Below are positions 763-63,555 of a stretch of DNA of 64,000 nt, in pieces (position 1 is the first letter of the stretch; each line of letters starts with the position of its first letter). The notes beneath the pieces were generated by a model. The model had not been told where the DNA came from. It saw nothing but the letters and a program-made list of their open reading frames with translations, and did not search any database. The DNA lies in NCBI GenBank assembly GCA_023231475.1, contig JALJEE010001986.1:20209-84208 (forward strand), written 5' to 3'. This DNA comes from Seison nebaliae (lineage: Eukaryota; Rotifera; Pararotatoria; Seisonacea; Seisonidae). A program made the translations under genes and the position numbers.

Positions 763-890
763 TCGTTATTCCATATTTGTTTTCTCTTTATCCAATCCTC
801 CATCTCATTCACTAATTTGTATTTCATTTATATTAAAATTTAATTTTGTTATCTTCTCAAATATTCAACGACGTAATAAAATTAACCTCA

Positions 891-3800
891 TTATAAAATA
901 GTTTGCAAATTCAATGGTCGTGCATCATCGGTATAAGGTGTAAATATTCTCGACCTATCGTTTTCCTCTGGAAGACTATTCTCTATCAGAATATCAAAAT
1001 GATCATAATATTTATATAATTCTTCAAATTTCTCCTTCAACTTATCACCAATAATCGTCAATGCAACATGAGGTATGAAATATATTAATACTTCAGTAAT
1101 GGCGATTAATCCGCATTTGAAACGACAATTAGCTTTCCTATTATCTAGATGTCCAAACCAAAATGGTGCATGAACTTTTTGCTAAATGGATAAATATGAA
1201 TTCATAATATTGTGAAGAAGAAAGATGAAACATTTATCGGTAATATATCGAATTGGATGAAACCTTTTTGCATGAAATAAATTCCATCAATAACATCATT
1301 TTTCCTCACCACATAATCTTCCGGTTCGAAATACCATTGTTCAGCAAAATCGACTATGAACAACTGTAAATGATGTTCCAACAATTGTAGTGACGGAACA
1401 ATGGTGAACATTCGAGCGATAATAGTAATGCAGATTTCCCTTCTGAGCGGATAAGGAATATCTTGGAAAATTTTCCTGAATTCAACTTCATGTTTCCAAG
1501 TCTCATTACTACGATGTTTCGCTTGTTTCCGATAACGCTCAGCAAGATCAGGTGAAAGACAATGAACATGAGTTAATTGGTTGAAACCTTTACTCATCAA
1601 TCTCGATTGTTGTTTAGTGATTGCTAAAATAAAATATTGCATAAGTGTATATCTTAATACTCGTAACAGTGTAAATTTACCCACGACCAGAATAGAAACC
1701 AGTAGAAGAATTTCCAATATATTGATTGGGGGAGACTCGTCGAATTCGAGTAAGAACATTTTAGTTAAAACACTAAAATAATGAGGGAGAATAATCTCTA
1801 TAAATAAACGGAGACTCTTCTCACTATTTCTTTCTAATATGCATGTTCTCAATCTTTCTTTTGATAAGAAATCTTCTTCAGTCTTAAAGAACAATCGATA
1901 ATCAAGCATTGGCTGAAGGAGATCACGATTGACATACAAGAGGAATTGAAAACAAACGAATAATTGGAATGCCACGGAGAATAGAATTCCTTGTTCAATC
2001 ATCGTAAAAGTATCACGAAGTGCATTCGATATTGTCAATCGAATAACTGGAGAATTATAATGTCTAATTCTTATGAGATGTAATGATTTTGCAATGATAT
2101 AAACTTGTTGTCGATAATTTAAGAGGAATAATGGAAGAACATATGGAAATGGATTATTTTCAATAAACCAAACGACACGTTCATAATATGTCCAATTTGC
2201 ATTGAATTTCATCGAGAACATTGACGAATAAAAGAAATCGGCAACTCTCAATTTGGTGTGGAAATAATAACTAATCAATGGTATGAGAATATCTAAGATG
2301 AGATTGATCAATATCAAATAATAGTTGAGGCTGCAGGCATAATAAATTTCAATTGTCCATATTACTACAAACCAATTGATGATAATGAGTATTATGAAAA
2401 TTTTTCTGAAAATTAAAATATTTTCTAATGAAGCCGATTCATTGTCACACATCGTTAGAACGATGTCAAATATGCGATCAATATATCTCCCAATTGCCAT
2501 ATTTAACATCTCCAGGAATGGATTATCATGTTTTTTCGATTTTCCAGTAATTACACTCGTTTGGTGTGTACTACCCATTGATATTTGAGTACCGGTATTA
2601 TTCGATTGATTAAAATTACATAAATGCTTTGTACAATGTTTAGTGAGATCATCTAAATCTTTTTCTTTTATTATCTTATGGAAGTTATTTAGCGATTCAT
2701 CATAATTTGCATTCTGATTAACATTCTCGTTACTTCTTTTCTTACCATACTCAGAATCAAAATAATTTACTTTTCTTAATAAATTACTATTATTTTCATT
2801 TTCGTTCGGGGTCTCTTTAAAGAAAGTGGGTAACATAGTTCTCGACTGTCGTTTTGTGACACCTTCAGCAAACGGATTATATTTAGTATTGTCCAACACC
2901 ACCTCTTCTTTGGCGGATGCACGTAAAAGACGTTTAATTTGCAAATTTTGATGGTAACTGGTTTTGGGAAAAGTATCTAATTCTCGGCTAAAATCCTCAC
3001 GAATATTCTGCAATAAAAATTTGTTCTTATCTTTCATCGTTTGAATTTTTGAAAATTTATTAAGTTGGTATTCTAATTCTCTTTGTACTTTGTAGAATAA
3101 GGCCTCGTCTAATCGTTGTCGTTTCCTTATTACATGATCTCGTGTTAATTCATTCGCAAAATCTAATAAACGTTTTTTCGTGTCTATTGTCGATTTGAAT
3201 ATGTGTTCATATCGACGTAACGACGCAACATGATCTAGATATCTCAAATATCTTTGTAAATTTATTAGACTTTTCTTCATTTGTTCATACCCGAAATTCT
3301 CATTCGTTTCCTCCGCTACAATCTTTTCCCAAAGATGCGGATGTTCCGGACTAAAATCTTCAATCGCTCTTTCTACTAATGAAGATATGTCATTCTCAAG
3401 TACCATTATTAACGCCTTAATTTGACTATAAGTTTGACGGAAGTTCTGAAGAAGAGCATCTCGTAAGCCTGGATAATAATCTAAACATGATTTCGCATGC
3501 GCTAATGGTATACTGCAAATGAAACAATTTGTTTTTGCACTAAACAAATCCAGAAATTATAAAGTACAAACAAATAAAGGAATTGATAACCGATAAGAAA
3601 ATAATAATTTTTTTTCTATATACTCACAAGTATGCATTAAATATCTTGGGCCCACTATCACTTCGAGTACCATTAATAAACTTTCTTTAAGTTTAGCTGA
3701 ATATTTCCGATCATAAAATAGTTCTTTCTGCAAAATTTTCCGATAATGCCCCGTCTCATATAATACTTCAACGGAGCCATGTTTGACGAAATGAATATAA

Positions 3801-6800
3801 TCGGAAATATTATCTTGTGCCTCAATAATTTCACCTGCCAAATAAAATTTTTGTCTAACATTGTCACAACAAACTCGGAGAACACTTCTCGAAAACAAAT
3901 GGAAGACATAACTGGATAGAAATAATGAGTTAAATGCATCTAATGCTAAATCGCTGCGAGGATCGTGTGGAAACAACCTGATGATTTCGTGGAAGTTATT
4001 GTTCTTGAAAAAACTCCAAGTAACATCAGCACGTTTTTGTATATTTTGCACAATATCTTTGTCAATATTCTCTTTTTCCAAAAAAGTTATAATTTTTCCC
4101 ATTTTCTTCTTTTGGATGTAATAAGGTAAATTGGATTTTACTAAAATAATAATTTCTCGAGCCATTATCACTTGATAGAGGTACCAGCCGCAACACATAT
4201 AAGCTGTATTGATAATAACTTCCAATTTAGTTTTAGGAATAAAATATGAGGGCATATATCCAATGAGTAAGGAGAAGGTTTTAAATGAAAATATTGCATA
4301 TAATTGCCACAAATCGAATGATTCGTGTACTTGTGTAAAATAGATATCGAATAAATCCGTTTTTAAACAAATTGCATTATATGACATAAATGAGACATAA
4401 CATGCGGAAACTCTTTCATCGCACTTTTCGTTTGAAAATACATTTCGAATATTATAAATTACTGGGGAATCTGATGCACAAAAGAAAAGGAAATAAAAGA
4501 CGATAGCAAAAGCATTGAGTGCAAGAGCGAGTATAATGGCTGATATACGTCGAAATACTTTTTTATGTTGTTTCGAATAATATCTAATAAATCCAATGAT
4601 ACGATACCAATGAAGTAATCGATTCAATACAACTGCTCTAAATTCGAATTTCGTATTAGTTATCTCATAAAGTTCTTTCCGAAGAATGATCTCTTGGTAG
4701 AACGAAATGACGATTTCCAAAGGCATCGTCCCAAAAATTTCAACGATTGTTGAAAGATTTAAAGAACGATAAACGGTTCGAATTTTTGTTGTGGTGAATA
4801 TGGATTGAGCATAATGACGAATTGTTATCATATTGATATAAATGTCAATTACACTCACCAAATCGCATATATAGATGAATGTCCAACGTGTGAAATTTTG
4901 ATCATCGATAAATAACAGGCGAAAGATTAGCATGGTTTGAAGGAAGGTGAATAATTCCCGAATAATTTTATAAATTTTCAAATAGTAATTCGATGGACTA
5001 ATTGTTGTTATTATGAATTTGGTACATATTAATTTGGTTATATAACTTTTATACGTATTCGTTTGAATGGTGCTTAGAAATATTTCATTTTCATGTCTCA
5101 GATTATAATACGCTTCACATACGATATTACCCAATGCTTTCAACTTCGTTCTTAACGCGTCTTTATACGGTTCAGGTGCCAATTCATTACTGGGTAAACG
5201 AACAATTTCACTGGAGAAATCTTTCGATGATATAATATTCTCAACTAAAGTCGTTTTGATGATTCGGGTGGAATAACGTTCTAAAATGGTAAAGACTTGT
5301 AACAGCAATCCGAGACCACGACTGCTACCATTATCTTGAATGATAGTGTTATCAAATTCAATTTTATGATGAACTGAAAAGCGATCAAGTACATCGAGAA
5401 AACTGTTTCGTTCAATTTCGATCACTTCTAAATCAGTTAATGCATAAACTGTCATATCTTCTTGTGCACCCAACTGGAAGCCGAGTGCCCCAAAATAATC
5501 TTTGGGACATAATTTAAATAACTTAATTTTATGATATTGGGCAATACAATATCCTTTCCTGATGATAAATAAACGATGACAAAAATTCTTTTCTGTTGTA
5601 ATTTTTTGTCCAGCCAGAAAATATTGAACATTAGTAATTTTTGATAAAGCTGTACGGAAACTGGTGATTTCTAAATTCTTAAAAAATGGCGTTTCTTCCA
5701 ATAATTCTTGATAGAATGGATTGATTGAACGTTGGATTCGAGGTGGGAAATATCGTTTAATTTCATTATCAAGAAACATTGAGAATATTTTGAATTTCTG
5801 CACGATCACATTACAATAATCATAGATTGGAACGAGAAAATAATCTTTCACATGGAATAGTGATCCAAACTGATTCATCAGATCCGTTATCTCGTCAACA
5901 GGTTCACATGTTCGATAGATGATATAACTGTTGACGAATATGATGGAGAATATTAACATTCGGATGAATATGCAGATGACTAATATGAATACGAAGGAAT
6001 GAATATACGGATCATTGATGGCCAATTTCGTAATAGGATTAGTTGTGCCAACAAGTAATTGAATAATTATGAAGAAGTTCAATGTATATGAATCACTCAA
6101 ACTACCTTCAACATTCAAAAAAGGGAAATATTCTGTATAGTTACATGTCTCATTATTATGAGAAATTATTTTAACGATACACATTAAGAAGAAATAATAA
6201 CAACTCACAATATGAATGCACAATACGGTACAGATGGGTTGTATGATGATAGAGATCCATAATGAGCCTATTGAAAATGGAGATCGTTGACGGAAGAATT
6301 TTAATAATGAATAAATCACGTAAAATATTCGGTTGAATTTCATCGTCATATTATAGCACAATGTCATATATCGATACAAATCTTCATTTATCGGACTATA
6401 AACTACAGTGGGATCATCGAAATCGAAAACCCATTCGAAAGGAATAATATAATTCAACGGTACGAATGAAATGAACATGATAAATACATCAAAAGTGAAT
6501 AGTCCGTAATGTATCGGCTTGACAACGATATGAGCACATGACGATTCAAATCGATGGATTTTGGTTAGTAGATATGAAAGAATAAAAAAGAATGCAACCA
6601 AATCAAATGCGTAACTAAGTGTATGACAGATCTCTAATTTCTTCCCATATAATGGATCAAGTAATAAGAAGCCATATACTCCAAACGTCGTATTAATGAT
6701 AATCATCACTACTAGCATTATCGTATGCAATATTTGTAATTGACTATTAAGATGCATCGACAGCTTATAAACCATCTTAGCAATTTGAAGGAATCTTGTT

Positions 6801-8791
6801 GTAAAAGCATTTGTGAATTTTTCAATTTTTTCCGAAATCGTCGGGGCCATTCCATCTAATGTTCTTTGGTAATTCTGAACGAAGTTTAAGAAATGTTGAT
6901 AAAAGTTTCTTTTTTGAAAAAATTAACTTCAATCATACCCATTTCCCCCTTGGCATTTGAGATTAATACTTCATATTGATACAAAGCAACATTCTCTAAC
7001 GGTTTCCCTAAAGCTCCACTAAATTTCGTTTTCATTCTCCATTTCCTTAAATATCGTTTGAAGCGTTTATGAGCTATTATTAATCGTTGACAGAATATTG
7101 ATGAGTATTACAATGAATGAAAGGAAACTTGTTGGATTAAAATATTTGAGGAATATTGGAGAATAACGAATGGCAATATTAAATAAGAATTTCCTATCCA
7201 AAAGAAGTATCATAGAATCTTGTTTAGCAAACAGACTTGTTTCACATGGTGTCGTCGTAATAATATCCTAAAATAATAAAATTAGTTTTGTTTTTAATTA
7301 TTTATAAAAAAACAAATAAACATTGCCAAGAGAGAAACCATTTCGATAAGCAAATTGATAGTTCGAATGACTCGTTAATGAAAGAGATTTAATTTCTCCA
7401 TAAACTACAAACATCAAATATTTGACTCGATCATTCTTATTAAATAAAATTTCATTCTTTGACAAATGAATAATCTCTATGAAAGGTGCGATTTTCCTCA
7501 ATGTTCCACGATCGATCGATGTGAAAAAAATCGATTCACGAAAAAATGGCAGAGCAATATTGAATTTCATATCGATATAAGTACCCGGACTTAACAACTT
7601 ATGTTCACTTTCCGTCAGAAGTAAATAATCCTCATTCCAACGGGTATGTAAGAATGTACGAATATAGCTTATGGTCTGTGGCAAGAGGAGCATTCTTTTC
7701 AAACTCTCAACATATGACGATAATTTTCCTCTCAGTTTATGCATTTGACTCATTTGACCAACATAAGTACAAATAATAAATGTCAACCATGGAACATAGA
7801 CCCAAGTATGATAAACGATGACAAATGATATGGTGGAAAATTTCTCATGCCAATAAGTCGGTTGAATATGTACAGGAATGTTCGATGTCGCAATACTCAC
7901 CGTATAATATAAACATCCCCAAAAATAATCGATTAATCGGAAAGAACTCGATTCATTCTCCAATTTTGCTAGCCAACTATCATCTAAAAATTTCAAGTGA
8001 ACAATCAAATTCAGTTTCTCAAATATTTAACTTCTATAAGTATAAATCGATTTATCTCCAAGATATCCACTACTGGATTGGGCGAACCAAATAATTGGAT
8101 ATATTACAATTACAAAGATTGCCGATATGACTACATGTGTAATATATCTAAAAGAAAATTCTCAAATTATATGAAATATGAAATTGCCGTTTAACTTCCA
8201 ACTACTGATATTACCATGTCTATATCGAAGATGAGCGTACAGGAAAGGAACTCTTAGAATTCTGTATGTCATGAAAACGATTAATCTCCGATTTTCCCCC
8301 AAAATCGAATCATCATCTTTCGAAAGAAAGTACGACAATTCGTACGGAATAAGCAAAATTACGCCAATTATTACGATAATCATTTTTAATTTTTTCGTTT
8401 CCCAATTACTATGGTAATTCCAATAATCAATTTGAGCATCTAAATTTCAATTGATTTTTTTTAATATTTCTTAATAATAAAGAATAAATCACCAACAGTA
8501 ATATAATGCATAAAGATGTGCACAAATTATCAGGATGAAGAATAGGAAGAATATGTCACTCAAATAAACGACAATCAGAACATAATCGAATTCGAATTGG
8601 TTCTCATATCCGAATGCCAATCGGATAGCAAGATAAAGCGCTGAGAAGAGCGTTAGTACAATAGTCACCAGTCTTACAAAATGTTCTAGGTAAGTGATGA
8701 CTCGGATAATCCTGTTGGATTTCCATTCACTAAATGTAAATAAATTATTTTGTGTTCTATTCAACAGATAGTGCGGTCGTTCGATGCGCAT
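891..8791 (-). CDS. Four-repeat (single-chain) cyclic-nucleotide-gated-type cation channel
   Basis: Nine exons keep frame: 8497-8791, 8196-8439, 8032-8147, 7322-7983, 7129-7267, 6928-7073, 3624-6874, 1232-3539, 891-1181, giving about 2,483 aa. Each of four repeats has S1-S6, a pore loop and a C-terminal cyclic-nucleotide-binding-like domain. Pore motifs are ATSNIP (about aa 249), VGTTNP (809), IGYMPS (1405) and FDESPP (2217). S4-like segments carry spaced Arg/Lys. A charged linker of about 340 aa separates repeats 3 and 4. Linked four-repeat channels (CNGK or tetraKCNG) are known from sea urchin and zebrafish sperm, where they conduct K+. Here no repeat has a GYG filter, so selectivity is unknown. 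The R3-R4 junction lies inside the R3 binding domain, so those repeats are one protein. The R1-R2 junction rests on a 53-bp phase-0 intron. The 5' end is the first ATG in frame; an upstream exon is possible. Confidence 0.85.
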
Positions 8792-9141
8792 TTTTCAACA
8801 ATGAAAAAGAACTGTCCAATTTTTTAAGTTTTATATTAATTATTCAAATTAGATGTTTTTAATCTCATTCTTATAACGAATGGAAAATAAAATTTAATAA
8901 AAGGTTGAACAAGAAATGAATAGGAAATTGAAATAGAAATCGGAAGAATATTTTAAAGAAAATAATATGTGAATTAAGTTATGAGCAACAATTGGTGAAA
9001 TATAATTAGTGTCTTTCTAATATTCTCGTCAATAAGAGAGCGAAAAATATTTTCATAGAATTTCAATAATTTCCTCTATATTTCCATGAAGTTTCGGAGA
9101 AGTACGAAAGAATGAATAAAACATTCTCTTTCTTTTCTTCA
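8792..9141. other. Intergenic, nothing recognised
   Basis: This AT-rich stretch between the start of the four-repeat channel gene and the end of the CDC42-effector gene probably holds the channel promoter. No repeat, ORF or RNA gene was recognised. Confidence 0.5.
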
Positions 9142-9766
9142 TTATAAACAGGTACTCATCGGGATTGTATTGGAAGATACTTTATCATGGATTTTTTCCA
9201 CATCATTCGTTAATGACGTATATATTAATGAATTTCTTCGACTATTAGAATTGACGTTATTCGAATGATTCTTTGATTCGGATTCATTCTCGTGATTCTC
9301 ATGGTTCTCATTCGTCTCTTCTGCACAACTTGGAAATTTTTCATAGACCTTCGAATTAATTGTTGACAATCGAGTATTCTGTACTGGTAATTTATCTAAT
9401 CTCATTAAACACATCGCTGGTGAAACAGTAAATGTTCTTGTTGATCGCATAGCTTCAATATCAATAAAACGCCGATTATCATTAAATTTAATTGAAGTCT
9501 GTGGATTGAGGGACGAAGAATTTGGTGATAATTCATTCTCGTTATTATCTTCTACATCATTCCCGCCGCTCATATGGGAAATATGACGGAATTCCGTCGG
9601 TGCTCCAATCTCATCTCTCGTTATTCGTTTCGGTCTTGGCTACAAACAGAAGTTCAATTGGAGAAGAAATTGATCAATTTGAGTAATAATAAGAAATAAT
9701 TTACGAAACTTGATTGACATGATATGGAACACAACATACCAAAGATTCGGTTAAATCTCTTGACAT
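9142..9766 (-). CDS. CDC42SE: CDC42 small effector (SPEC) homologue with extended C-terminus
   Basis: Two exons: 9740-9766 (MSRDLTESL) and 9142-9639, with a GTATGT donor and TGTAG acceptor, giving about 174 aa. The second exon opens PRPKRITRDEIGAPTEFRHI, which matches the PxPKRRRRIDxxMIGxPTNF part of CDC42SE/Spec2 and the CRIB consensus (I-S/G-x-P-x2-F-x-H-x2-H). CRIB peptides bind GTP-loaded Cdc42 or Rac at the membrane and shape actin. Known family members are about 80-90 aa. Here an acidic, Ser/Asn-rich tail of roughly 140 residues follows. The N-terminal cysteines that are lipid-modified in vertebrate SPECs are absent from the first exon as called, so an alternative upstream start should be considered. 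Confidence 0.68.
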
Positions 9767-10785
9767 GTTAATGAAATAAAATTGGGATCAATTATGTTGT
9801 TTGGAGGAAAAAGAAAATTTGTGTGGATGAAATATGAAAAAAGGATTTGTTTCGTACAACTACGTTTTCCGATCGACGATTGTTGGATTTGAAAGATATG
9901 TGTATTTTCAATAGATAGATATGACGATATAATATGGGGAATTTATTAAATAATATTTTCTATCTGTTTAAATTTCTATCCGTCTTTACCTATCTTTTGA
10001 TGTCTTTGTGTATTTGTCCTTTTTTCTAATTGTCGTGTCGTCGTCTTCTACGTATTATTTGGTGTTCGCGAATAAATAGTTGTTGACGTTCTCTATTATG
10101 CTAATAGACAACATATATTTATATAAATTCTTACATATATTGCTTGTGTTTGCTATCTAATATTACGTACTTCCCAAATACGATAATTATATACAGAAGT
10201 ATTTCGTTTCACACATATAGCAACATACTCATTAATACGTTGAATGAAGACAAAAAAGGAATACTGCGATCTGTTTATGTGTTTCGGACGTATGTATAAT
10301 ACATTGTATATAGAAATGAAACGCTCTTTCTTTTTCTTTTTTCCTTTCCGTTTCTGACCCGACTCAATGAATGACTATGTGAGTCGAACTGATAAATATC
10401 AACAAATCTTTTTCATCACTTGCCAATGAGAATAATTAAACAATTTTAATTAATTAATTAATGAGAAACTCTAATAGAAATTTTTATTCTCTCCTCCCAG
10501 TCTAATTTATTGTAGCAATTTCTTTCAAACTGTAAGCAACTGACCAACTAACAACTTCTCCACAAACTTCAATTATTTCTGTATAATTGCTGATTTAACA
10601 AGTCTTAATGTCCCATTAATGACATTAAATAATGACATAATTATTAAATGTATATTATCAAAAGAGAATTTACATTGCTTAATTCTAACAAAGACATGGT
10701 AATTTAAAACAATTTAATCCTAGAAGATTTTGAATAAATTTATGAACCTCATCAAATGAGCCTTATTACTTTCTCGTCATTTTAA
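9767..10785. other. Intergenic region, about 1 kb, no gene seen
   Basis: AT-rich DNA between divergent genes: the CDC42 effector on the minus strand and the SHIPPO protein on the plus strand. It is the likely shared promoter region. It contains pyrimidine-rich stretches and a short TTAA run near 10446-10462. Nothing else was recognised. Confidence 0.4.
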
Positions 10786-12304
10786 TTGTTGGAAAATCGT
10801 CGAGAAGATAATTTTGTGCCATTACTTAAAAGAATGACTATAAATGTGAAGAAAATCGCATTGAATGAAGGGTTTAAGGATGCTGTTATGAATATCACAC
10901 CACCCGTAGCCACATTACCTTGTGATGGTTTTCCATTTGAAAATTATGGGGAAAATTTGAAACTTCCTCAACCTAAGGAAGTTCAACAACAAGAGCTATA
11001 GTTATAATATTTAAATCATTATAATTACTTATAAACAATATCAGTTGCGGAGATGAGTATGTTTACGAGGAGTATGACATGTCTAAATACCCGGAAGCTG
11101 CTAACGCAGAAAAGGGACATTTAAGAGCAGCGGAAAATTTAGACGCATATTTTTGGTCAACACCTAAGAACATTAGGAAGAAACTTGGACAAATATTTCA
11201 CGGTTCTGCCAAAATTCTTCTGTTGTCCTTTGTTCTAACTTTTTTCAAGAAAAGTCGCGAGAACGACGAAAAGAGTCATGGAATATTCATTGCAGTTCTT
11301 GATTACTTCATCTTCTATTTGATTAATTAAAATTTAAAAGAACAAAGATTAGCGAAGAAAATCGGTCCAGGTAGTTTTTATCCGAATTATGAAAGTGTGG
11401 AAAAGAACTCACCCGCTTACACAATGGTTGGACCTCTTCATCAAGCAAGTACTGTTTTCCGATTTTGAACTGTTTGTCAATTAAATAAATTAATATAAAG
11501 AAACTATCAGATATCCAGGGCCAGCAGAGTATATGATTAAACGAGAACCGATTAATGAAAAATTTAAAAGTTGTTCATTTAAAGGACCGAATTGGCTCGA
11601 TCCAGAAGAAAATTATGTCGATTTTTATGATACGAGTAAATATAAAGCCCTTGGCACTGAACCAAAACATACATTTTTTGGTAATCATCGAAAATGTAGA
11701 CGTCAATATCCACCAGTTTATAATGAACAACTTTATAAACCAATTATTCCCTCCAAAATCGGTTGGACGTTTGGTTTAAAGAATGAAATTGATGAATGGA
11801 AAGTCGAGAGTTCAAATGATTTATTAATTTAACTAATTTTAAAATATTTTTAGATTATTATCGTGCTGTTAGTCCCAGTGTAGTAAAAAGAAAAACACCG
11901 TATTATTCGATAGTTGGTGACCGTTATACTCGGAAAGGAGGTTTTTTTTTTCGAATCAAATTCGTTTCGGACGTGAACTTTTTAGGAATGAAATATACTT
12001 CTAGTCCAGCAGATTTTTTTCCTAACCTTTCTTATAAACCGAATGCTCCGAAATATTCAATGAAATTCGAACCTAAAATATTTAAACGTGATAGATTCGG
12101 AGACATAAAAGAAGTAAAGAAAGATGCCGGTAGTTGGAATTTTCATTAACGGGCATGTCAATATTTATTTTTTTTTGCGTAGATTCTAAATATAACCTTG
12201 GTCCTGGGTCATATAACATACCATTAGATACTAACGATTTCCGCGGACATTTATTCAATTATCGTTTTCATGGATCATGTATTTTGCAACCGAGGGATTA
12301 CTAA
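10786..12304 (+). CDS. Sperm-tail PG-rich repeat (SHIPPO/ODF3-like) protein, multi-exon
   Basis: Exons read approximately 10831-10978, 11053-11230, 11341-11450, 11518-11830, 11854-11931, 11977-12131 and 12183-12304. Diagnostic pieces are KIGPGSFYPNYESVEKNSPA, YPGPAEYMIKREP, PYYSIVGDRY and YNLGPGSYNIPLD. These are the P-G-P-x-x-Y and PxYSxxGR-type repeats of sperm-tail PG-rich (STPGR) proteins, which bind the inside of ciliary or flagellar microtubules or sperm outer dense fibres. The last three exons join in phase and end in a clean stop. The junction between the exon ending near 11450 and the one starting at 11518 does not keep frame with the only good donor I see, so the model is incomplete there, or the gene is damaged. 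The start codon is uncertain; the ATG at 10831 or 10786 could serve. Confidence 0.62.
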
Positions 12305-12599: not shown

Positions 12600-13085
12600 C
12601 AGATCCCATCGATGCCGTGCGCTTTGTTGATTCTTGTGGAGTTGATTGTTTTGGAGATATCTTTGTGTCGTGTTTCGCTGATTTCATCCAGTGGAGACGT
12701 CGAACACTGTGACGAAAGATCTTCTTCGCACGAATTAGCACTGCGGATGTTTTTAGCGATGGTGTTGTTAAGGAAAGACGGGATAATCTCCCGAATTCCA
12801 TCTGTAACGGAAGCATCCTGTGAAAGCTTGCGAATGGTGAGGAATAATGAGCACGTCAACGGAATGTGGTCGGATAGAAATGCTGGTTGCGAATTGTGAA
12901 GAATGAAAAAATCGAAAAAGAGTGATCGAAGAGATGAGGAGGCAATAATATGGTCTATCCATGATGCGCCGACTGATGAGGAGAATGTATGGGAGTCACG
13001 TGTTAACAGAAATACGTCGACCACGAAAGCATCGAGAGAGATGAGACGATGAAAGTCAGATGAGACCCATCCCGGATCTAATCGC
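12600..13085 (-). mobile_element. Non-LTR retrotransposon fragment: endonuclease C-terminus to RT start
   Basis: On the minus strand the translation contains SWIDHIIASS and AFLSDHIPLTCSL, the end of an AP-type endonuclease domain (SDHxP motif). It then runs to HGIDGI, which corresponds to the start of a reverse transcriptase (A-x-G-x-D-G-I). A stop follows directly, so the RT core is missing. The fragment is head-to-head with the plus-strand RT fragment beside it, so it is a rearranged relic and not an active element. Confidence 0.72.
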
Positions 13086-13858
13086 TTATTCTCACTTAAA
13101 ATCGGTGGGAACTCGTTTCCTGCAGTGGTTGCGTACGCAGATCATATTCTAATATGTTCGGATAATGTAAATCAATGTAAAAAGATTATTGAATTTATCA
13201 ACAATCGGTTAACTATAGTAGGAATCATATGTAATGAAAGTAAATCGTCAATTTTGTCGAATATTTCGAGATTTCCATTATGGTGTGACTTAGAGGAATT
13301 GGTGTCTAAGGAAGTGTGTTTCCTGGGATGTCAGATCGACAGGAAGAAAAGAAGTTCAGCATTAGTTGATCGTGTAAGATGTAAATTCCTTAGGTCCTTT
13401 TACTCCTACCATCATCGGTGCAAGTTTTTCTCTATCAAATTGAAACTGAGATTATTCGTATGTTACTGTTGTGATTTTTATGGGCTGCCAGTCTCTATAT
13501 CGAATACAGAAAAGTCATTGCGATGCCTTGATCGAACATATAATAGAACAGTTCGAAGCCTTTCAATAGAGCATTTATGTTCACGATTTGCCAATTGACT
13601 CCATTACCGCTACTCCTGGCACAGAGGTATCTGAAAGTAGTTGACTCGGTTTCCCGATCGGCCCTTCCAGTTCCAACGTATACACAATGTGAGAGCTTCT
13701 CGTCGCCTCGCCAATTTTTTTGCCGATATTATTCTCTTGAACTCCCATCTTCTCTCGATGAGTCGTTATCACTGATATCCAATTTTGTTATTAGTGATCT
13801 GGTTCCCGAATCACTCAAGGAGTACATTGATGTCGGTAGGAACTTACCGATGTTTTAG
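13075..13858 (+). mobile_element. Non-LTR retrotransposon fragment: RT C-terminal half
   Basis: The plus-strand reading frame gives AVVAYADHILICSDNV, the reverse-transcriptase F/Y-A-D-D box with the second Asp changed to His, followed by the thumb region and C-terminal domain. Beyond about 13555 the frame changes. Compared with the related copy at 63565-64000, this copy lacks 19 bp between GTTCG and AAGCC, which explains the shift. The element is dead: a mutated active site, a frameshift and no 5' part. Confidence 0.78.
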
Positions 13859-23869: not shown

Positions 23870-24975
23870 TTACATCCGTCCGTCCGCATTTCTCTCTATT
23901 TGGTTCTCGATTACTCGATCTGGGATTTGTCCTTCGTTTTTCCATCTAAACATAGCCATACTTGGTGTAACTTTTGTTGATGAATGAATTGCGGTTCGAT
24001 ATGAAAGTAAAGCCATTGGCAGTTTCCCATCCCAATCTTCCCTTCCATCCTCCGTAAATTTTCTGAAGTAGTTCAGAATTGTCCGGTTCATTCGCTCCAC
24101 AAGTCCGTCGGTCTGTGGGTGATATGGCGATGTTCTAATCTTCTCGATATCAAAGTCTTTGCATAATTTTCTGATGATTGATCCGTCCATGTTTGCTCCC
24201 TGGTCACATAGCAGTTTTTCTGGTGGCCCGTTCAATGCAAATATATCGATTAACTTTTTAGCCACTCGTTCTACCTTTTGGTCCGACATTGCTATCGCGA
24301 AAGGATATTTCGTTGCGTAATTCATCACCACTAAGATGTACTTATTTCCACTTTTGGTTTCCGGTAGATGACCCAATATATCCATGGCCATGACTTCACC
24401 CGGTTTATTCGCCCGTATACTTTCCATCTCTCCTCTTCGAATGGATCTTGGCGCGGTCTGCTGGCATTTTTCGCATGACATGATCCATTGTTTTATTTCA
24501 GTATCCATTCCTGGCTAATAATATCTCCGACGAATTCGTTGTTTCGTTTTTTCGATTCTGAAGTGACCCGCTTTTGGATCATCATGATTCCTTCTGATTA
24601 AGCGTTCTCTCTGTCTCTTTGGCACAACAATTGTTTTCTCGCCTTCGATGGTCGTATATACTAACAATTTTAATATATTAATAAAAAATATATTAAATAT
24701 TAATAATTTTAACTATAATTGTAAGATGTCATTAATGTTTTCCATTCTGTTTCGTGCTTTTCGTCATTCAAATGAAAGTTTCGACCAGTCGTTCCGGTTT
24801 ATAGTCTGACATTCGTAATCTATTCTTTGCTCTGCGATTATTTCGTCGTTTTCCTCGAATTCGGCAACCATATTTACTTCCCTTGACATGAAATCGGCGT
24901 TTTTATGCTTACTGCCCTTTCTATAAACGATTTCGTATTCGAGGTTGCTTAATTTTATGCATTTCTACATTTTTC
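23870..24975 (-). mobile_element. Ty3/Gypsy retrotransposon relic (RNase H tail to integrase core)
   Basis: Reading down the minus strand, 24975-24770 gives the end of an RNase H domain (YEIVYRKGSKHKNADFMSRE). An AT-rich insertion near 24660-24725 interrupts it. The integrase zinc-finger region and core then run to 23870. The core keeps Asp in AMDIL, Asp in LCDQGANMDG and Glu in TDGLVERMNRT, so the D,D-E triad is present. A stop codon breaks the frame just before the core (after RRRYY, about 24517). Reverse transcriptase, protease, gag and LTRs were not found here, so it is a partial, inactive copy. Confidence 0.85.
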
Positions 24976-27743: not shown

Positions 27744-27988
27744 ATTTTATTTCTTTCTCAATTTCTATTCCAGAAATATTTATTTTATCTTTTCTCACCA
27801 AGAAACATCCATCCAAATCTTTTTATTTTTAATCAAAAACTTTCCAATAAACTTTTATTTTACTCGACTAGATATTTTCATTATTTCTCTCATCTCTCTC
27901 AAATCAACTCAACTTCTTCGACAATAGGAAGAGAAATCTCTTCTTCCTTATATCCCTCCCAAACAGTTAAACAGATTAAGAGAAAGTT

Positions 27989-29158
27989 ATGTATCATCAA
28001 TATCTGACAAATATTCATCTGGAAGGATTGGATCGATACAAATATCGTGCAATCGACACTTCACCACTCTCTAAATATGTGATGCATCCATTATGGAATT
28101 GGATGGTGGAATTCTATCCAAAATGGCTTGCACCAAATCTAATAACATTTCTCGGATTTTTATGTCTTATCATCAGTTATTTCTTGGTGGCATTCTATGA
28201 CATCGATTATACAAATTCAGAAAAGATTCCTTCTTATGTTTGGTTCGTATTCGCTATTCTCCAATCAGCTTCTCATCATTTAGATGGAACTGATGGTAAA
28301 CAAGCTAGACGAACAAATTCTTCGTCACCTGTTGGAGAATTGTTTGATCATGGTATCGATTCATGGGCAGCCTCATTATTAACGTTAACAATGTATTCGA
28401 TTTATGGAACACATCCACTTTATGGAATTACAATTAATAAATTGATCGTCGTACTTTTTATTCTCCAAATGACATTCCTCTCATCACATTGGGAGAAATA
28501 TAATACAGGTATTCTTTATTTGCCATGGGGCTATGATATCAGTCAGATTTCAATGACAGCTGTTCTCTTATTGACATCATATTATGGAACTAGTTTATGG
28601 CATAATACATTCTATGGAATTACACCAGCCATCGCTCTCCAATGGTCCATTATTATCATGTCTTGCATATTCTCTATTCCAATGTCGATATATAATGTGT
28701 ATGTACATTTGGTGCAACAACATGAGAAGAATAAAATTGTCTGGAAACGAATTTTCGAACCATTAATCGCTCCCATATTAATGATTGTTTGTATCGTTTG
28801 GTATCTGTCATTCTCTGATATAGCAACCAAATCACCACGTCTCATTACGTGGCTAATTGGTGTACTCTTCTCCAATGTAGCATGTCGATTGATCGTATCA
28901 CAAATGACGGATACGAAATGTCAACGATTTAATCGATTAACTATTACCACTTTCTTCTTCTTTTTTTTCATGTTCTCCTTTAAGAACTATTTACCTTTTC
29001 TATTTATTGAATATGAACTTGTTGTTTTTCTTACATACACAATCCTCCTAACCAGTTTACATGTACATTATGGTACATCTATCATCTCTCAAATCTGTCA
29101 TCATCTTCATATTCGAGTTTTCACTATTCCACTAGTGGAAGAATCGAAAGACGAATGA
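27989..29158 (+). CDS. SELENOI: Ethanolaminephosphotransferase 1 (CDP-ethanolamine pathway)
   Basis: Single exon, 389 aa. It has the CDP-alcohol phosphotransferase signature: DGTDGKQAR, then G-E-L-F-D-H-G-I-D about eleven residues later (aa about 100-126), with all catalytic aspartates present. Further EPT1 hallmarks are LDRYKYRAIDTSPLSKYV near the start and SHWEKYNTGILYLPWGYDIS in the middle. Around ten hydrophobic segments fit an ER/Golgi multipass enzyme that transfers phosphoethanolamine to diacylglycerol. The reading frame stops at TGA (29156-29158), followed in frame by three codons and TAA. The vertebrate orthologue carries selenocysteine close to its C-terminus, so whether this TGA is read as Sec is open. 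Confidence 0.9.
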   Translation: MYHQYLTNIHLEGLDRYKYRAIDTSPLSKYVMHPLWNWMVEFYPKWLAPNLITFLGFLCLIISYFLVAFYDIDYTNSEKIPSYVWFVFAILQSASHHLDGTDGKQARRTNSSSPVGELFDHGIDSWAASLLTLTMYSIYGTHPLYGITINKLIVVLFILQMTFLSSHWEKYNTGILYLPWGYDISQISMTAVLLLTSYYGTSLWHNTFYGITPAIALQWSIIIMSCIFSIPMSIYNVYVHLVQQHEKNKIVWKRIFEPLIAPILMIVCIVWYLSFSDIATKSPRLITWLIGVLFSNVACRLIVSQMTDTKCQRFNRLTITTFFFFFFMFSFKNYLPFLFIEYELVVFLTYTILLTSLHVHYGTSIISQICHHLHIRVFTIPLVEESKDE

Positions 29159-52641: not shown

Positions 52642-53465
52642 TTAACTGTCATCGATTTTTGGTGCTAAATAATATCGGATATATCCCATTTCCGATATTT
52701 CATATTCGACGACTGAAAAGAATAAAATAAAAGAGATTTCATGAAGTAAAAATAACCTAATGGAGCATTCTCACTTATACTCAATGAAACACGACTCGAT
52801 ATCGGTTGAGCTTTTGAGAAGAGTGAAAGATATTTCAATGAGAAATCTAAAGATACAGATGAATTTAATTCGATTTTAATCGCGTCATCTGGTTTATCAG
52901 CTGTTCCGGATGATTCGCTAATTTTAATTGATCCATTTCCAATATCACCAGATGCACTAAATCGAACTCCATCTTTGGTACAAACAACTTTGATGGAATC
53001 TCCAAACATTGCAAGATCGCGACAAATTCGAGAGAATTCACCACTGGGCATATTAATTATACAAGCATAATCTTGTTCAGGAATAGTTAATTGATATGCC
53101 TCTAATTCCATTAATTTCATTTCGAATTCACTTGATTTATCATGATCAGTTTGTTCAAAAAGAAATGTTAATTTGTCAGCATCATCCGGTGCTTTCAATG
53201 TTACTTCATCATCATTCGTCGAACATCGAAGGATTTTCGACATACTTTCGATATTGATTCCTAATGACAGATTTCGATCACATCGAAAATGTTCAAAACC
53301 TTCTCCACGTAAAAGTACTGCAACCAGTGCAACATGAGACGAGTCCATCGACTGCAAACATAATCCCTGACAAGAACATTCCCAAACCGATTCCTTAACC
53401 AATTCTTTGATCGCGTCGATTGTCTTCTTCAACAAAGTACTCGTCGCCAATCGTGCTTCGAACAT
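52642..53465 (-). CDS. PCNA: Proliferating cell nuclear antigen (sliding clamp)
   Basis: Two exons: about 52753-53465 and 52642-52709. Exon 1 starts MFEARLATSTLLKKTIDAIK and includes LCLQSMDSSHVALVAVLLR, FRCDRNLSLGINIESMSKIL, MKLMELEAYQLTIPEQDYAC and KDGVRFSASGDIGNGSIKI. Exon 2 gives VEYEISEMGYIRYYLAPKID and the stop. The two half-clamp domains and the interdomain connecting loop (LMELEAYQLTIPEQ) match PCNA closely. The trimer encircles DNA and tethers replicative polymerases and repair factors. The C-terminal LAPKI segment is intact. Start, length and order are all standard. Confidence 0.97.
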
Positions 53466-54582
53466 GACTAATATTGAAAAACAGAACGTTCAATAAAGAT
53501 CCGAATGAGAGAGAATGAAAAAAGTACAGCAAATGTTTTAAAAGAATAATGTGATTTTTGTTCATTCTTTTCAAACAGTCACAAATACATTGCTCTACCA
53601 CAAATATTTAGTTAACTTAAACTCAGTAAAAAATTGCAAATTGTTGGCTTTATAAATAAGGTTGAAATAGAAATTTAGCAAATTTTTGATATTCGACCAA
53701 AAAGTTCATTAACAAGACAGTTACAGATATCTTTTTATTGTCCTAAAAGAAATGTGTAATTTAAGTTTGGAAATAGTATTAATTAACAAATATTAAATTT
53801 TTACATTATATTATTATTATATAAATATATTATTATTTTTTTATTAAAAAAAGAATTCCAAATTAGGGTAAATTATAAATTGTGGAATAGCCGTAATCAT
53901 AAAGTTAATAGCACATAAATAACGAGTTATTTTATTGTCGCAAGTGAACTCACGGTCAAGTGGAATATGCAAGGTGAGAGTACCACATACGTACTACCCC
54001 ACTTAAAGTTTATTAAAATATTTCAGACATCAATTAGACATGAAGGACAGGACATTATAAATACTAACTAAAATAGCGAAGAGGTGTGTGAATTGCTCGC
54101 ATCCCAAAAATGTCCGAAAACCAACCTGAGAAACCCAAATATTTTCCCTCGAGTAAGTAGTAAATATTAATTGCTCTCGAGGATAATTACATTTAGTTAC
54201 TATATGTTTAGTTTAGACATTTATAGAATTTTTTTTATATTCAGTATCGAGTGTTCATAAAAAGAAATGAAGTTTGCTAATTAGTCGATTATTTTAAGAG
54301 GAATTTTAAATTTATTTTCCAAATATTTTAACTATTCAAAAGATCCTGAATAAAGACAGTATTGAAAAAAACAAATTTTTTTATGGTTTTTTTTGAATAG
54401 AACTGCATATACCTATATAATAACATAAAAAGGTGATGAACTGGTTTACTAGATGAAATCATCGTTTATGCTATCTGACATAATTATGTAATCCATATGA
54501 TTTACTTACGGTTAAAGACATAACCACCGTTATAAATTCGCATAAGGAGATCCGGATTGAACGAAATTTTATGAAAATTTGG
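53466..54582. other. Intergenic about 1.1 kb; a tiny spliced ORF possible
   Basis: AT-rich DNA between PCNA and the protease-like gene. A short ORF starting ATG at about 54112 (MSENQPEKPKYFPS) meets a consensus donor GTAAGTAG and could splice to a stop after eight more codons (acceptor TTCAG about 54243). No other feature was noticed. Confidence 0.35.
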
Positions 54583-58354: not shown

Positions 58355-59400
58355 CTATCGAACAATTGGACTGCTCTTACTTCTCCATCGTACCATATCG
58401 TACAATTCCGTAACTATTGCCATATGCAATCTATTTCGTGGGAGTTGTTCATCGTCGACTAGCACCACTTCGCCTTTCTCAATGTGCCTAGTGGCACCGA
58501 ACGATCTTCTATAGTTGTCGCGTAACTCTCTTAGATATTCGGCGTTGAAGCGATCTACTATCTCCGTTCCTCTATTTTTATATTCCCATAGAGTCTTCTT
58601 ATGATCATGAGAGTTTTCGACTCCAATGGTTTCGATCAATCTTGGCGTTAAAATAATCGGTTCCCCAATGTTATCCTCATAAACATAACCAAGAGGGCGG
58701 GAGTTGATTTGTTTTTCAATTTCCTTTATTACAGTCTCGCATTCTTCGAAGGACTTATCATGTAATTGACCCACATTTCTCAATTGACTTTTTACAATTC
58801 CGACCATTCTTTCATAGAATCCTCCCCACCAAGGCGCTCGCGCTGGAATGAATCTCCATTTGGTGGCGACCATACTTCGATCCACTCGAAATTGGTTCTC
58901 TATTGATCCCTTTGCACCAATAAATGTGGGAGCATTATCGCTTACAACTAATTTCGGGGCATCCTTTTGAGCCTTTGACCTTTATTGTCACATGATCGAT
59001 GACCACATTCAAATACACATTCCTAGTCACTGCGCATGAGAACAACAGCACATAGATTTATCGTCCATCCATTAGTTTCTCTTCTCCACTTTTAAGCGAG
59101 CGTATCAAATCGCCAAAGCATTGCTTTTGGTGTTGAATATAGATGTACTTGGAAGGCTTATCCCAAATTTCTTTTAATCTCTGCAACCGCGACTTGTTTT
59201 TCTGTATCACTCTAAACTTTGTTAATACTCGTACTAGAGTCTTTAACACCCTCAAATGTTTAGAGAGCCCATTATAACGATCTAATGGGACGATATCACT
59301 TTTAGATACCTTGATGTTGTCATTGTCGAATGGGCACAGTATGGCTTCCCCCGGCAATTTCGACCAATCTTGCGGTCATAGGTTGCTTCTTTCCGTGTCT
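58355..59400 (-). mobile_element. BEL/Pao retrotransposon relic (integrase region)
   Basis: Minus-strand pieces 59058-59357 (PSKYIYIQHQKQCFGDLIR, the linker before integrase) and 58355-58885 (WRFIPARAPWWGGFYERMVG, then INSRPLGYVYED and a C-terminal stretch with EKGEVVLVDDEQLPRNR) are typical of BEL/Pao integrases. The first two integrase Asp boxes lie in the broken stretch between them (about 58890-59050), where frames change. No RT or LTR was found. It is a dead copy. Confidence 0.85.
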
Positions 59401-59514
59401 GCTTTATAAGTTCCCCGAGAAAGCATGTCCGTTGGATTAAGGGAGATTAAGGGATAAGGGATATGTGTCGTATTTCGCAACTTCCAACATCCAACAATTT
59501 ATTGGGATCCAACG

Positions 59515-60354
59515 AATTTACAATTCTATATCCCAGTTTTTATCCAATATAGGGTTATTCATTTGGTTATAGACCTTTATTCGGATTTTGAGGACTTTTA
59601 TTCATCGGATATAGATTTCTATTCATCAACTAATGGATTAGCTATTGATGGAAGCCACATCCCTATAAAGAAACCTCCTGGAAAGAATACAGATTTTTTA
59701 TATTTTTATCGAAAGAGATTTCTATCAATAGATATCGCTGCTGTCGATGGAAGAAAATTATTTAAATTTGTCGAGATCGGAAGAAAAGGTAGGAAACACG
59801 ATAATTCCATTTTCGAGCAATCTTCTCTTCGAATTTGGCTAAGTAGTTGTTCTACCAATAAGTTTTATTATGAAGATCAGCAGTTAAAGCCGTTAATAAT
59901 CAGAGATGCCGCATTTCGCTTAGATTGCGACGTAATGAAGCCATATCCTTCTGAAGAAAGTTTGCTTCTGTCTATTTTATAATTTATGTACTGTTTAATC
60001 TTATCTATCTTTAATTTATTACCTTAGCTTCATTGAAAAAAACATTCAACACCATTTTGGCACAATACCGAATTGTCGTTGAAAATGCATTTGGAATGCT
60101 CAAAAATAAATGGCGTATTCTGACAACTGTAATATGTAATTGTATAATTAATATGACAAATGTATAATTCTGTATGCGTGCTGCATCCTTTACAATTTCC
60201 ATTTAATAAGATCAGAATATTTTTTGGAATTTCCCTGCCAAATGGAACCCGATGTGGAGACAATAAATGAAACCGATGTAGAAACTGGAACAATATCAGG
60301 TAAATCTATTCGATATAAAATTGCAAATTATCTTCGTTTATTTCACAATAATTG
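59515..60354 (+). mobile_element. PIF/Harbinger (HARBI1-type) transposase gene
   Basis: The first frame gives LAIDGSHIPIKKPPGKN, then YRKRFLSIDIAAVDGR, KFVEIGRKGRKHDNSIFEQS and IIRDAAF. After an apparent intron (about 59968-60028), SLKKTFNTILAQYRIVVENA and FGMLKNKWRIL follow. A last piece in another frame, ACCILYNFH to KIANYLRLFHNN*, ends at about 60354. The DDE residues expected in IDGSH, IRDAAF and VENAFG are all visible. A frame change near 60165 needs a second intron or marks decay. Harbinger elements usually encode a second Myb-like protein; none was found. It lies between BEL/Pao and Gypsy relics. Confidence 0.8.
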
Positions 60355-61526
60355 AATGTAATGTTCGGTAACAAACGAAAAGTCCAAAAGGTTCATTTGC
60401 CATCTCCATATTTTGTTACTTATTTCGTTGGATTTAAGTAAAAGTCGACATGCCGCCGTATTATCTGTTCTTATGATAAATTTTTTGTGAAGAAGATGAT
60501 ATCGAAAGTGACGTATAAAATGATATATCGCGAATGCTTCGATTTCATTGATATGCCATTTTGTTTCTGAAGCAGTTAAAATTTTTGAAGCATATTCAAT
60601 AATAAATTCGACGTTGTCGCTTAATTGGAAGAGAACTGCACCAATGGCTTTTGTTGAAGTGTCTACTTGTAGAATAAACTTGCGGTTCCAATCCGGTTTC
60701 GCCAGTACTGGTGGATGAATTCGATGAATTTCCGTCCATTGAAGCTTATTCCATTTGATTATATCGTATAAAGGTGATAATATTTCATTGAATTTTGGCA
60801 CGAATTTTCGATAGTAATTAGCCATACCGAGACAAGATCGGACTTCTTTCAGATTATTCGGTTCTGCGATCTTTTGTAATGCGACAACTTTTGCTGGATC
60901 TGCCTTCAAACCTTTCTTGGAGACTATATATCCTAGGAATGATATACGTTTACGAGGACGATGTTCGAACACCAGCTACTGATAGATTTACGGATTATCC
61001 CTTTCTTTAGCATGTCGTCACATAATTCGTCGATTATTATACTTTCTCCGTGAGCGTAACGTCTTTGTTTTGTCTTAATTGGCGATTCCGTTACCGTCTC
61101 GATTCGATGTTCCACTAGTGAAGTACAATGATCGATATTGATTTTCAATTGTTCGAATTGGATATTTTCTTGAGGTGTCGTTGCGATTGATGTAATTGAA
61201 CCAATTTTCTCTTGTAGTCCGTCGAGAGAATTAAGGATGACGATGCATTGTTGATTGTAGTTAATTGCGAGATTATATTTCGCAAGCATATTACTGCGAA
61301 TTATGCGGTTATAACGACATGATGGTACGACATAATAAGCCGTATGTATTTCTTTGTCGTCGATTTTGATGCATGTTTCTAATTTTCTCGATATTGAAAC
61401 TTGACCCACATTTAATGGTCCCTGAAGGATTTTGATCGTTTTTTCAAATTCGATAGACGGTAAACCTTCAGCGAGCTCTTCGCTAATGATACTTTGCTGA
61501 GCTCCACCATCTATGAGCGCTTCCAC
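60343..61526 (-). mobile_element. Ty3/Gypsy pol relic: protease and RT/RNase H with RT core deleted
   Basis: 61526-60933 starts in an aspartic protease (LIDGGAQQSIIS, with DGG at the active site) and runs into the RT start (MLKKGIIRKSISSWCSNIVLV). The next frame, from 60972, resumes at RISFLGYIVSKKGLKADPAK, past the RT active-site YxDD box, and continues through the RNase H-like domain (FILQVDTSTKAIGAVLFQ, RTDNTAACRLLL). The RT palm is therefore missing and the element cannot transpose on its own. The order protease-RT-RNase H on the minus strand continues from the gag part upstream. Confidence 0.87.
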
Positions 61527-61699
61527 GTTGATCCCATGAATATTAATTGCCGAAAAAGAAAGATTGTTTTTGAAATTAAGGTTCCCTGCCCATTCATGTC
61601 GCTCTGGATGGTGGTTATTGTCAATGTAATTACATATGTATAACGAATATTCTTCTTTGGAATTGTTATTTATCGAGAATATTCGAGTGCTTCTTGGGA

Positions 61700-63046
61700 C
61701 TTCTGTATCCTTGATGCTTAATGCATGTGTTTAATTTGCACCATTTGCAGTTTCGATCTTTATGGTGATATGTACATTGATTTGCTACACATTTCCTGCA
61801 TTTTCCTTTGTAATCATTTCGCCGTGACCTCGTGTTGTTTGTTGCGTATTATTATAAGAGAGATTTGATATGTTTGAGTTGAGCAGTTCAACATTTTTCT
61901 TTCCTAAATTGTTCGATGCATATTTTTCCTCTTCTTCGATGTCAGATGCTGCGATAATGAGATCGGCAGTTCCAACATTCGGGTTACTTTTTATCATCCT
62001 GAAGAACTTTTTTCCGATTTTTTCGTCATGTATGCCCTTCATAAATTGATTCCGAATAAGAATTAACAACTCTGAATCATTTGTATGTTGATAAGCGATT
62101 TCTCTGATTTCTTTCACCCGTACATAGAAGTCCGCTACATGTTCGTTGCTTCGACGATAAAGTTGCTGAAATAGTTGATTTGTATGAAAGATAATTGATT
62201 ATTTCATATAATGTAGAATGTCGTTTTGAATCTTTTAATCGTTCTACTTCTATCATCGCGCGTTCCTCGTTTCTCAATGCATTCCAGAAAATTTCCATAT
62301 GCATTTCTTCTGGGATTCTATTTGAAGATAAGTAGAGTTTCATTCGTTTACTCCAAGAAGGAAAGTTTTCCTCTTCGTTTTTTTTCGATTATTGGCTGAT
62401 TTTTATCGCCTTTTTCCAAATTTGGTGAATTTTGGAAAAGTTTTCTTTCGTTCGAAATATTTTTCTCGAATGGGAGTTCGTAATGGGATGTATTATTCAA
62501 ACGATTAATGACGAGTTGGTTTAATGATTTGCTTCGATTTAACAACGGTGTGACGTTGTAATCATTTTCCACGAGAAATTATAGAAATTGTTCCAATCTT
62601 CCAATTTGCTTAGAGAAGGACGTAATGTAGTTGAGGTTATCATCAGATATCGTTTTAAATTTCGAAAGCGTTCGATTTTTTTCGTTTAAATGAGATTTTA
62701 TATTCGTTTTTCTGTCATTCACCATTGTTACGAAAGTTGATCCTTTCGGCATTGTCACTACTATGACTTCCTCGCTTCCTATAGTTTCCACGGAAACATT
62801 TATTTTGTCTTTAGATAGATCTGGTTCGAGTGCGTTGAATTCGATCTTCTCCGCTTCATCTATCGAATTGATAACTTTTGAAATTTCTTTTATTTTCGTT
62901 TCGCCGATAGTTACTGATTGTGGTGAATTCAATTTTTTTGTCATTTTAAGACTTATTATGTCTTCATTAATTGCTTTGAGACTTTTGTTGGTCATCGTCA
63001 TAAATGTGGTGATTTGGTTCCGTAAAAATCTTTGATTTTCTTCCAT
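61700..63046 (-). mobile_element. Gag region of the same Ty3/Gypsy relic
   Basis: Minus-strand pieces run from MEENQRFLRNQ at 63046 through 62348-62572, 62077-62343 and 61785-62117 in changing frames, and end at a Cys/His-rich zinc-finger stretch near 61700-61800 (GKCRKC, CTYHHKDRNCKWC). The middle holds a retrotransposon-gag-type helical region (WSKRMKLYLSSNRIPEEMHM). At least three frame breaks or stops separate the pieces, so gag is not translatable as one protein. Confidence 0.72.
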
Positions 63047-63084
63047 TAATAATCTTAATTTATTAATTTGAAGATTTATCCATC

Positions 63085-63102
63085 CGCGTGGTCGCCATGT
63101 TG
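63085..63102 (-). promoter_or_regulatory. Possible primer-binding site of the Gypsy relic
   Basis: On the minus strand TGGCGACCACGCGGATGG lies about 40-57 bases upstream of the gag ATG, directly after a segment ending CACAACA. A start with TGG and a position just inside a 5' LTR are what a tRNA primer-binding site should show. No second LTR was found for comparison, and the tRNA was not identified. Confidence 0.35.
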
Positions 63103-63109
63103 TGGATCG

Positions 63110-63555
63110 GGGTCTACAATGACAGTGTCACTGAGATCATAGTAGTTTATAAGAAAGATATAATTTTATTAAGGAAGAGATTTTATTGAGGAAAGAATAT
63201 TAAATGTTGTTGTTTTCTTTTTTTGTTTCTTTTTCATGTTCTTCTTCAGCCAACTGCTGAGGACTGATCTATATAGTTCTCTATGTTAATAACTTAAAAC
63301 TTCACTTTACTTTTTTTATCCTTATTCATTTTATCTTCCCTCTATAATCACTTCCCGACTTCTTCAATCTTCAGATTATTACTAATCGACTCAAAGATGA
63401 ATCAAGATTTTACGATGGACCGACAATATTAGGTAATAATTAATAGTTTATCGAATATTGTAAGAACTTTAAACATTTTAAATCTCTCTATACGTCTTTT
63501 CTATTTTGTTTTTATTTTCAATTTATCGCGAAGGGTTTCGATTTTATATTTTTTT
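63110..63555. other. Possible 5' LTR region of the Gypsy relic
   Basis: AT-rich, ORF-free DNA between the candidate primer-binding site and the poly(T) end of the next non-LTR copy. It may contain the 5' LTR, but without a second LTR in the window the boundaries cannot be drawn. Confidence 0.3.

Follow-up and report, generated by a model that had tools for sequence, protein, structure and literature searches.

CNGK channels (also called tetraKCNG), known from sea urchin, zebrafish and Ciona sperm, consist of one chain with four repeats, each comprising the transmembrane segments S1-S6 and a cyclic nucleotide-binding domain (CNBD), and they control the membrane voltage by which sperm of these animals are steered or activated (in passages of PMC4749565 and PMC8835908). 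The passages cited here from PMC4749565 and PMC7576140 list such four-repeat channels in choanoflagellates, sponges, cnidarians, echinoderms, tunicates and fish. According to the former, their pores carry the K+ motif GYG or GFG, the third CNBD alone gates the sea urchin channel, and the Arg of repeat 2 is lost in zebrafish. Among open-licence PMC papers, none was found on CNGK in rotifers or on ion channels in Seison, and for paralogs with four homologous CNBD repeats there was only a general guide and no specific paper; rotifer CNGA and CNGB are covered in PMC9803222, in whose cited passages CNGK is not mentioned. Here we describe a gene of the four-repeat type on the minus strand (8791-891) of a 64,000-nucleotide stretch of the rotifer Seison nebaliae (contig JALJEE010001986.1, positions 20,209 to 84,208), referred to below as the window.

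The nine exons of the gene stay in frame through four S1-S6 plus CNBD units, and its product corresponds to the public Seison nebaliae "hypothetical protein" SNEBB_003563 (99% identity over 98% of the spliced query). The chain combines four collinear repeats in one frame, an old paralogy, no GYG or GFG in any of its four pores and a basic S4 in all four repeats. We assume, with a probability of roughly 0.55, that it is a single-chain four-unit protein, a fast-evolving paralogue of the CNGK-type gene C455 of the same genome, which would serve as a voltage/cyclic-nucleotide sensor without a K+ pore. The elements on which this reading turns are the following:

8219-8269, minus: S4 of repeat 1 (5 K+R in the 30-residue stretch counted)
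7865-7927, minus: pore loop 1, ATSN against GFGD of C455 (motif scan and alignment, register by eye)
7163-7516, minus: CNBD 1, containing intron 4 (E 6.4e-5 with Pfam cNMP_binding, under the cut-off)
6284-6343, minus: S4 of repeat 2 (basic-residue count)
6023-6088, minus: pore loop 2, GTTN against GFGD of C455 (by eye; aligners place it differently)
5378-5668, minus: CNBD 2 (Pfam E 1.7e-7, above cut-off; 36% identity to CNBD 2 of C455)
4568-4633, minus: S4 of repeat 3 (basic-residue count)
4232-4303, minus: pore loop 3, GYMP against GFGD of C455 (by eye)
3440-3889, minus: CNBD 3, split by intron 7, SYRAKTNC against GCRTITDC of C455 (51-bp intron model)
2063-2122, minus: S4 of repeat 4 (basic-residue count)
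1724-1786, minus: pore loop 4, LLEFDES, without filter motif, as is EYGIEG in repeat 4 of C455
1032-1378, minus: CNBD 4, split by intron 8

As in CNGK, a CNBD is present in every repeat. Pfam cNMP_binding gave E values of 6.4e-5, 1.7e-7, 0.016 and 0.0081 for repeats 1-4, with only repeat 2 above the curated cut-off; the scan of repeat 3 used the intron 7 junction of the initial annotation and covers 36 of 89 profile positions. Pfam Ion_trans was found in none of the four repeats at E up to 5, and searches of the PDB with exons 7 and 8 returned weak matches to KCNH, HCN, CNG and SthK (best E 3.2e-6 and 3.8e-5, respectively). Four S1-S6 plus CNBD repeats lie on the one predicted chain, the transmembrane half of repeat 4 being recognised by hydrophobicity and position only. 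In the S4 segments of repeats 1-4 we counted 5, 5, 7 and 5 basic residues, compared with 7, 4, 3 and 5 in C455 and 5, 4, 3 and 2 in C695, another modelled four-repeat gene of the genome (stretches picked by eye and of unequal lengths).

A motif scan of the whole window protein found no GYG, GFG or GETP, and the sole G[YFL]G, a GLG, falls within a linker. By eye, ATSN, GTTN, GYMP and LEFDES occupy the pore positions, so that the K+ motif is found in 0/4 pores versus 3/4 in C455. The four distinct pores proposed in the initial annotation, which had seen here a highly divergent CNGK member, are doubtful for this reason; the four-repeat build and the collinearity with the GFGD-bearing C455 bear that placement out, while membership of CNGK proper fails on the filter, and the gene is accordingly called here a putative CNGK-lineage paralogue and not a CNGK channel. 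That it encodes an ordinary K+-selective CNGK channel, as its four-repeat architecture of six transmembrane segments (6TM) plus CNBD might suggest, is very improbable and contradicted by the pores, none of which has GYG or GFG, while C455 keeps GFGD in three of its own. It is possible, though we regard it as rather doubtful, that the central pore conducts without K+ selectivity, the altered loops forming a new Na+, Ca2+ or mixed-cation filter gated by voltage and/or by cyclic nucleotide at repeat 3. The hydrophobic stretches for S5 and S6 persist in all four repeats, and two CNG-like genes of the same genome, C788 (TVGEVPP) and C699 (SIGNNPRP), also lack GYG and are unlike each other; against such a pore, no filter common to the four repeats or shared with C695 was seen by eye or in the motif scan. 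The asymmetric gating suggested in the initial annotation would be a hypothetical property of the chain, though its repeats do differ. Where the CNBD would bind the phosphate, a basic residue seems, by eye, to stand in repeat 3 only (R in C455, R in the window gene and K in C695); C455, the window gene and C695 have E, D and L in repeat 2 and F throughout in repeat 4. The R in CNBD 3 of the window gene depends on a 51-bp intron 7, the junction of the initial annotation giving D.

The initial annotation had supposed a compact invertebrate genome, which agrees with the 36.0-Mb assembly of this rotifer. A CNBD scan of it gave 24 places on 18 contigs, and besides the window gene it appears to hold at least two others with four repeats, C455 and C695. 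In C455, repeats 1-4 as far as mid-CNBD 4 occupy a single open frame (3,119 codons), inside which two of the CNBD-scan places fall; once a 71-bp last intron, the only one modelled, is added, C455:10307-19887 encodes 3,169 amino acids (aa). Its pores 1-4 read GFGDIVP, GFGDMLP, GFGDYLP and EYGIEG, Pfam finds Ion_trans in four stretches and cNMP_binding in two (each at E up to 1), and it is perhaps the functional Seison CNGK. C695 (locus L040 8421-664, minus) was reached by a search with C455, and its ab initio model comprises 16 exons and 2,311 aa with four repeats (the longest exon is 2,361 nt, and the model avoids stops by construction). The motif scan places GFG outside its pores only, and the pores are free of GYG and GFG. 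A direct match between the window gene and C695 is missing, and no fourth gene of this type turned up when P0001, C455 and the main C695 exon were used as queries. Other matches that were opened were labelled by eye as single-unit, namely C100 and C269 (KCNH-like), C788 and C699 (CNG-like) and C689 (HCN-like), while the CNBD match of C438 is a PKA regulatory subunit by the same inspection; the remaining 10 CNBD contigs were viewed as 3.2-kb loci only.

The window protein is collinear with C455, repeat for repeat, and the repeats of the window gene, C455 and C695 cluster by position (98/98, 97/97, 96/97 and 80/81). Moreover, for five of the eight window introns, C695 has an intron in the same phase no more than eight alignment columns away, and the phase-0 intron in CNBD 4 of the window gene and C455 is placed within one column. 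Because the repeats group by position and the introns coincide, these comparisons indicate that the four-repeat chain is older than the split of the three genes. The position groups contain no Seison CNG, HCN or KCNH row (the backbone of the tree is weak), and the repeat tree without the C455 rows had no resolution. The protein searches retrieved no named CNGK, and in the tree the window repeats group with those of C455 by position. For CNGK, the cited part of PMC7576140 pairs repeat 1 most closely with 3 and repeat 2 with 4, a pattern on which our trees had no resolution. The initial annotation had left room for an independent fusion, and had named recent tandem copies of one ordinary channel as one outcome that would refute its claim of a single four-unit gene. 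Nothing was found in favour of either. The independent fusion is unsupported because the four-repeat state precedes the split of the three genes, and a recent tandem duplication of one CNG or HCN channel conflicts with the grouping by position over three genes, with the weak matches of the window repeats to one another (Z -1.3 to 4.4) and with the lack of direct DNA repeats above 32 nt across 800-9800, so that we give this pair of origins a negligible chance. A self-blastp showed no internal repeats in the window protein, but none in C455 either, whose repeats do match, and carries no weight here.

The window repeats have branch lengths of 2.22-2.89 changes per column versus 1.06-1.65 in C455. 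Long branches together with motifs lost in all pores could mean that the gene is decaying, a pseudogene in progress, which would explain the loss of the filter. We consider this quite unlikely, since 2,494 codons are open with phased introns and the S4 charges are kept: frame 0 of the corrected coding sequence has the final stop only, where the other frames contain 177 and 220, and exon 7 (1,094 codons) would be open by composition alone with a chance of about 10^-37. C695 is also readable as 2,311 codons, though in a model built to avoid stops.

Three descriptions of the gene were compared, namely the nine-exon model of the initial annotation, an ab initio model (from a caller trained on C455 codons, with a GTT bonus set by the analyst) and the public protein, which has 2,626 aa and departs from the first at the N-terminus and at intron 7. 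The preferred structure is:

8497-8791, minus: exon 1, from ATG 8791, S1-S2 of repeat 1 (spliced model; contested by entry at 8640)
8196-8439, minus: exon 2, S3-S4 of repeat 1 (spliced and ab initio models; public protein junctions the same)
8032-8147, minus: exon 3, S5 of repeat 1 (spliced, ab initio and public models)
7322-7983, minus: exon 4, pore, S6, C-linker and start of CNBD 1 (spliced, ab initio and public models)
7129-7267, minus: exon 5, remainder of CNBD 1 (spliced, ab initio and public models)
6928-7073, minus: exon 6, end of repeat 1 (spliced, ab initio and public models)
6875-6927, minus: intron 6, 53 bp, phase 0, join of repeats 1 and 2 (spliced, ab initio and public models)
3591-6874, minus: exon 7, repeats 2 and 3 as far as mid-CNBD 3 (public, ab initio, alignment; end at 3624 in the initial annotation)
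3540-3590, minus: intron 7, 51 bp, phase 2, within CNBD 3 (ab initio; column and phase of a C695 intron)
1232-3539, minus: exon 8, end of CNBD 3, linker of about 300 aa, repeat 4 as far as mid-CNBD 4 (spliced, ab initio and public)
1182-1231, minus: intron 8, 50 bp, phase 0, within CNBD 4 (at most one column from C695 and C455 introns)
891-1181, minus: exon 9, end of CNBD 4, stop 893-891 (spliced model)

A C695 intron of identical phase lies three alignment columns away from the intron ahead of exon 4. The claim of a single gene with four fused units was reproduced, with an open frame and a CNBD by Pfam in all four repeats. With an intron 7 of 84 bp the nine-exon model has 7,452 nt and 2,483 aa with one stop only, at the end, and introns of 57, 48, 48, 54, 55, 53, 84 and 50 bp, GT-AG in 8/8; the splice sites and the frame stood, and the length changed, as intron 7 is probably 3590-3540 (51 bp) rather than 3623-3540 (84 bp), giving 2,494 aa. 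The shorter intron is favoured because all seven other introns start with GTT and span 48-57 bp, because the ab initio caller and the public protein use it (11 extra residues), and because its alignment column and phase are those of the C695 intron. GTT also starts two introns of C788 (by eye; one other intron may begin with GTC). The pairwise scores at the junction (0 for the initial annotation, -6 for the public protein) do not discriminate between the two versions, of which the 84-bp one was judged less likely.

The start at ATG 8791 is favoured, less surely than the rest of the model, because an in-frame TGA (8797-8795) adjoins it upstream, S1 stays whole and the N-terminus of C455 is also short; it is opposed by the entry at 8640 from upstream exons in both the public and the ab initio models. 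The public N-terminus, an open reading frame (ORF) at 9765-9145 joined at 8640, is likely a chimera because it cuts S1 and the upstream ORF looks like a CRIB protein, although the ab initio caller also enters at 8640. The beginning of that ORF resembles a CDC42SE-type protein, a small CDC42-binding effector with a CRIB motif, and Pfam PBD gave E 0.047-0.059, below the cut-off.

It had also been asked whether repeat 1 is a gene or transcript of its own, with intron 6 retained or translation restarting at ATG 6850. This ATG is in frame, and an in-frame TAA follows 6927, so a retained intron 6 would end the protein just past repeat 1. However, the 53-bp phase-0 join claimed at first is present in the public protein and in the ab initio model, C455 holds the join of repeats 1 and 2, and the order of repeats 1-2-3, inside one exon, and C695 has the same order; a separate repeat 1 is thus unlikely.

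For the preferred reading of a sensor-like paralogue, the following working may be proposed. The chain would have 24 membrane spans and fold on itself as a pseudo-tetramer, the S4 helices would shift with voltage, cyclic nucleotide would perhaps be bound at repeat 3, and K+ would not be passed selectively. A sensor or non-K+ conductor seems likelier than a K+ channel because S4 is kept and the filter motifs are gone; one chain should supply the whole filter and be unable to borrow from other subunits, unlike CNGA/CNGB, whose subunits mix, so loss in all four repeats should end K+ selectivity. Any current would either pass the changed pore non-selectively or be a proton current via the voltage sensors, for which the precedent is HCNL1 of zebrafish sperm, an HCN relative with a non-conducting central pore and proton flow through its voltage sensors (in the cited part of PMC11700363). 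That it sits in sperm or cilia is conjecture by analogy with CNGK. Tentatively, an ancestral CNGK may have given rise to C455, with its K+ pore, and to the window gene and C695, both four-repeat chains with dead pores. If so, the latter two would represent a novel protein type, single-chain sensors that combine four voltage sensors with four CNBDs but lack a K+ pore, and they would work by letting protons through the voltage sensors or by shifting partner proteins. Two filter-less chains beside one GFGD chain in a small animal would form a natural experiment on a CNBD channel without a K+ pore, and possibly, HCNL1 being the first, a second instance in which a member of this channel superfamily has taken on another job; the three genes supply repeat-by-repeat material on the specialisation of fused repeats.

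Exons with PG-rich repeats lie at 11331-12301 (plus) of the window, about 2.5 kb from the channel start, and resemble what are presumably sperm-tail ODF3 (SHIPPO) proteins. No SLC9C1-like locus was seen: 10 Na+/H+-exchanger matches fall on 6 contigs, which do not overlap with the contigs listed under CNBD (24 places) or Ion_trans (90 places). A scan for CATSPERD gave nothing, as did its controls. The ORFs at 13053-13595, 23873-24514 and 58358-63999 look by eye like retroelement pieces (reverse transcriptase or integrase), and ordinary neighbours by Pfam are PCNA (52668-53489, minus) and a CDP-alcohol phosphatidyltransferase (27980-29155, plus).

Among the systems compared, C455 shares with the window gene the repeat order, collinear similarity, the phase-0 intron in CNBD 4 and the Arg in CNBD 3, and differs in having GFGD in pores 1-3, 3,169 aa, one modelled intron and shorter branches. 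C695 resembles it in its pores without GYG or GFG, in the five near-matching introns of the same phase and in length (2,311 aa). The public protein searches, which need shared 5-letter words, so that absence in other species is not inferable from them, matched the window gene and P0002, one of them giving no match, and retrieved no named CNGK. P0002 (3,073 aa; E 1.3e-15 in the search with C455) likewise joins four channel-CNBD units in a single chain and ends in a long low-complexity tail, but has GFG or GYG in four pores, and its repeats fall outside all four position groups (weak backbone). CNGA/CNGB, HCN and KCNH have one 6TM-CNBD unit per chain against four here. HCNL1 is built of separate subunits, each with one voltage-sensing domain (VSD) and one pore domain, whereas the window gene has four in the chain; the missing filter motifs would be compatible with a non-conducting pore like that of HCNL1. 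In the sperm Na+/H+ exchanger SLC9C1, a VSD and a CNBD drive a transporter and not a K+ pore (PMC10620092, in the part cited), and its exchanger domain is not detected by Pfam in the four repeat pieces of the window gene. The four S1-S6 plus CNBD repeats on a single chain are shared with CNGK, a K+-selective channel gated by cGMP or pH whose pores carry G(Y/F)GD against 0/4 in the window gene; and where sea urchin CNGK is gated by CNBD 3 only, a basic residue seems, by eye, to be kept in CNBD 3 only.

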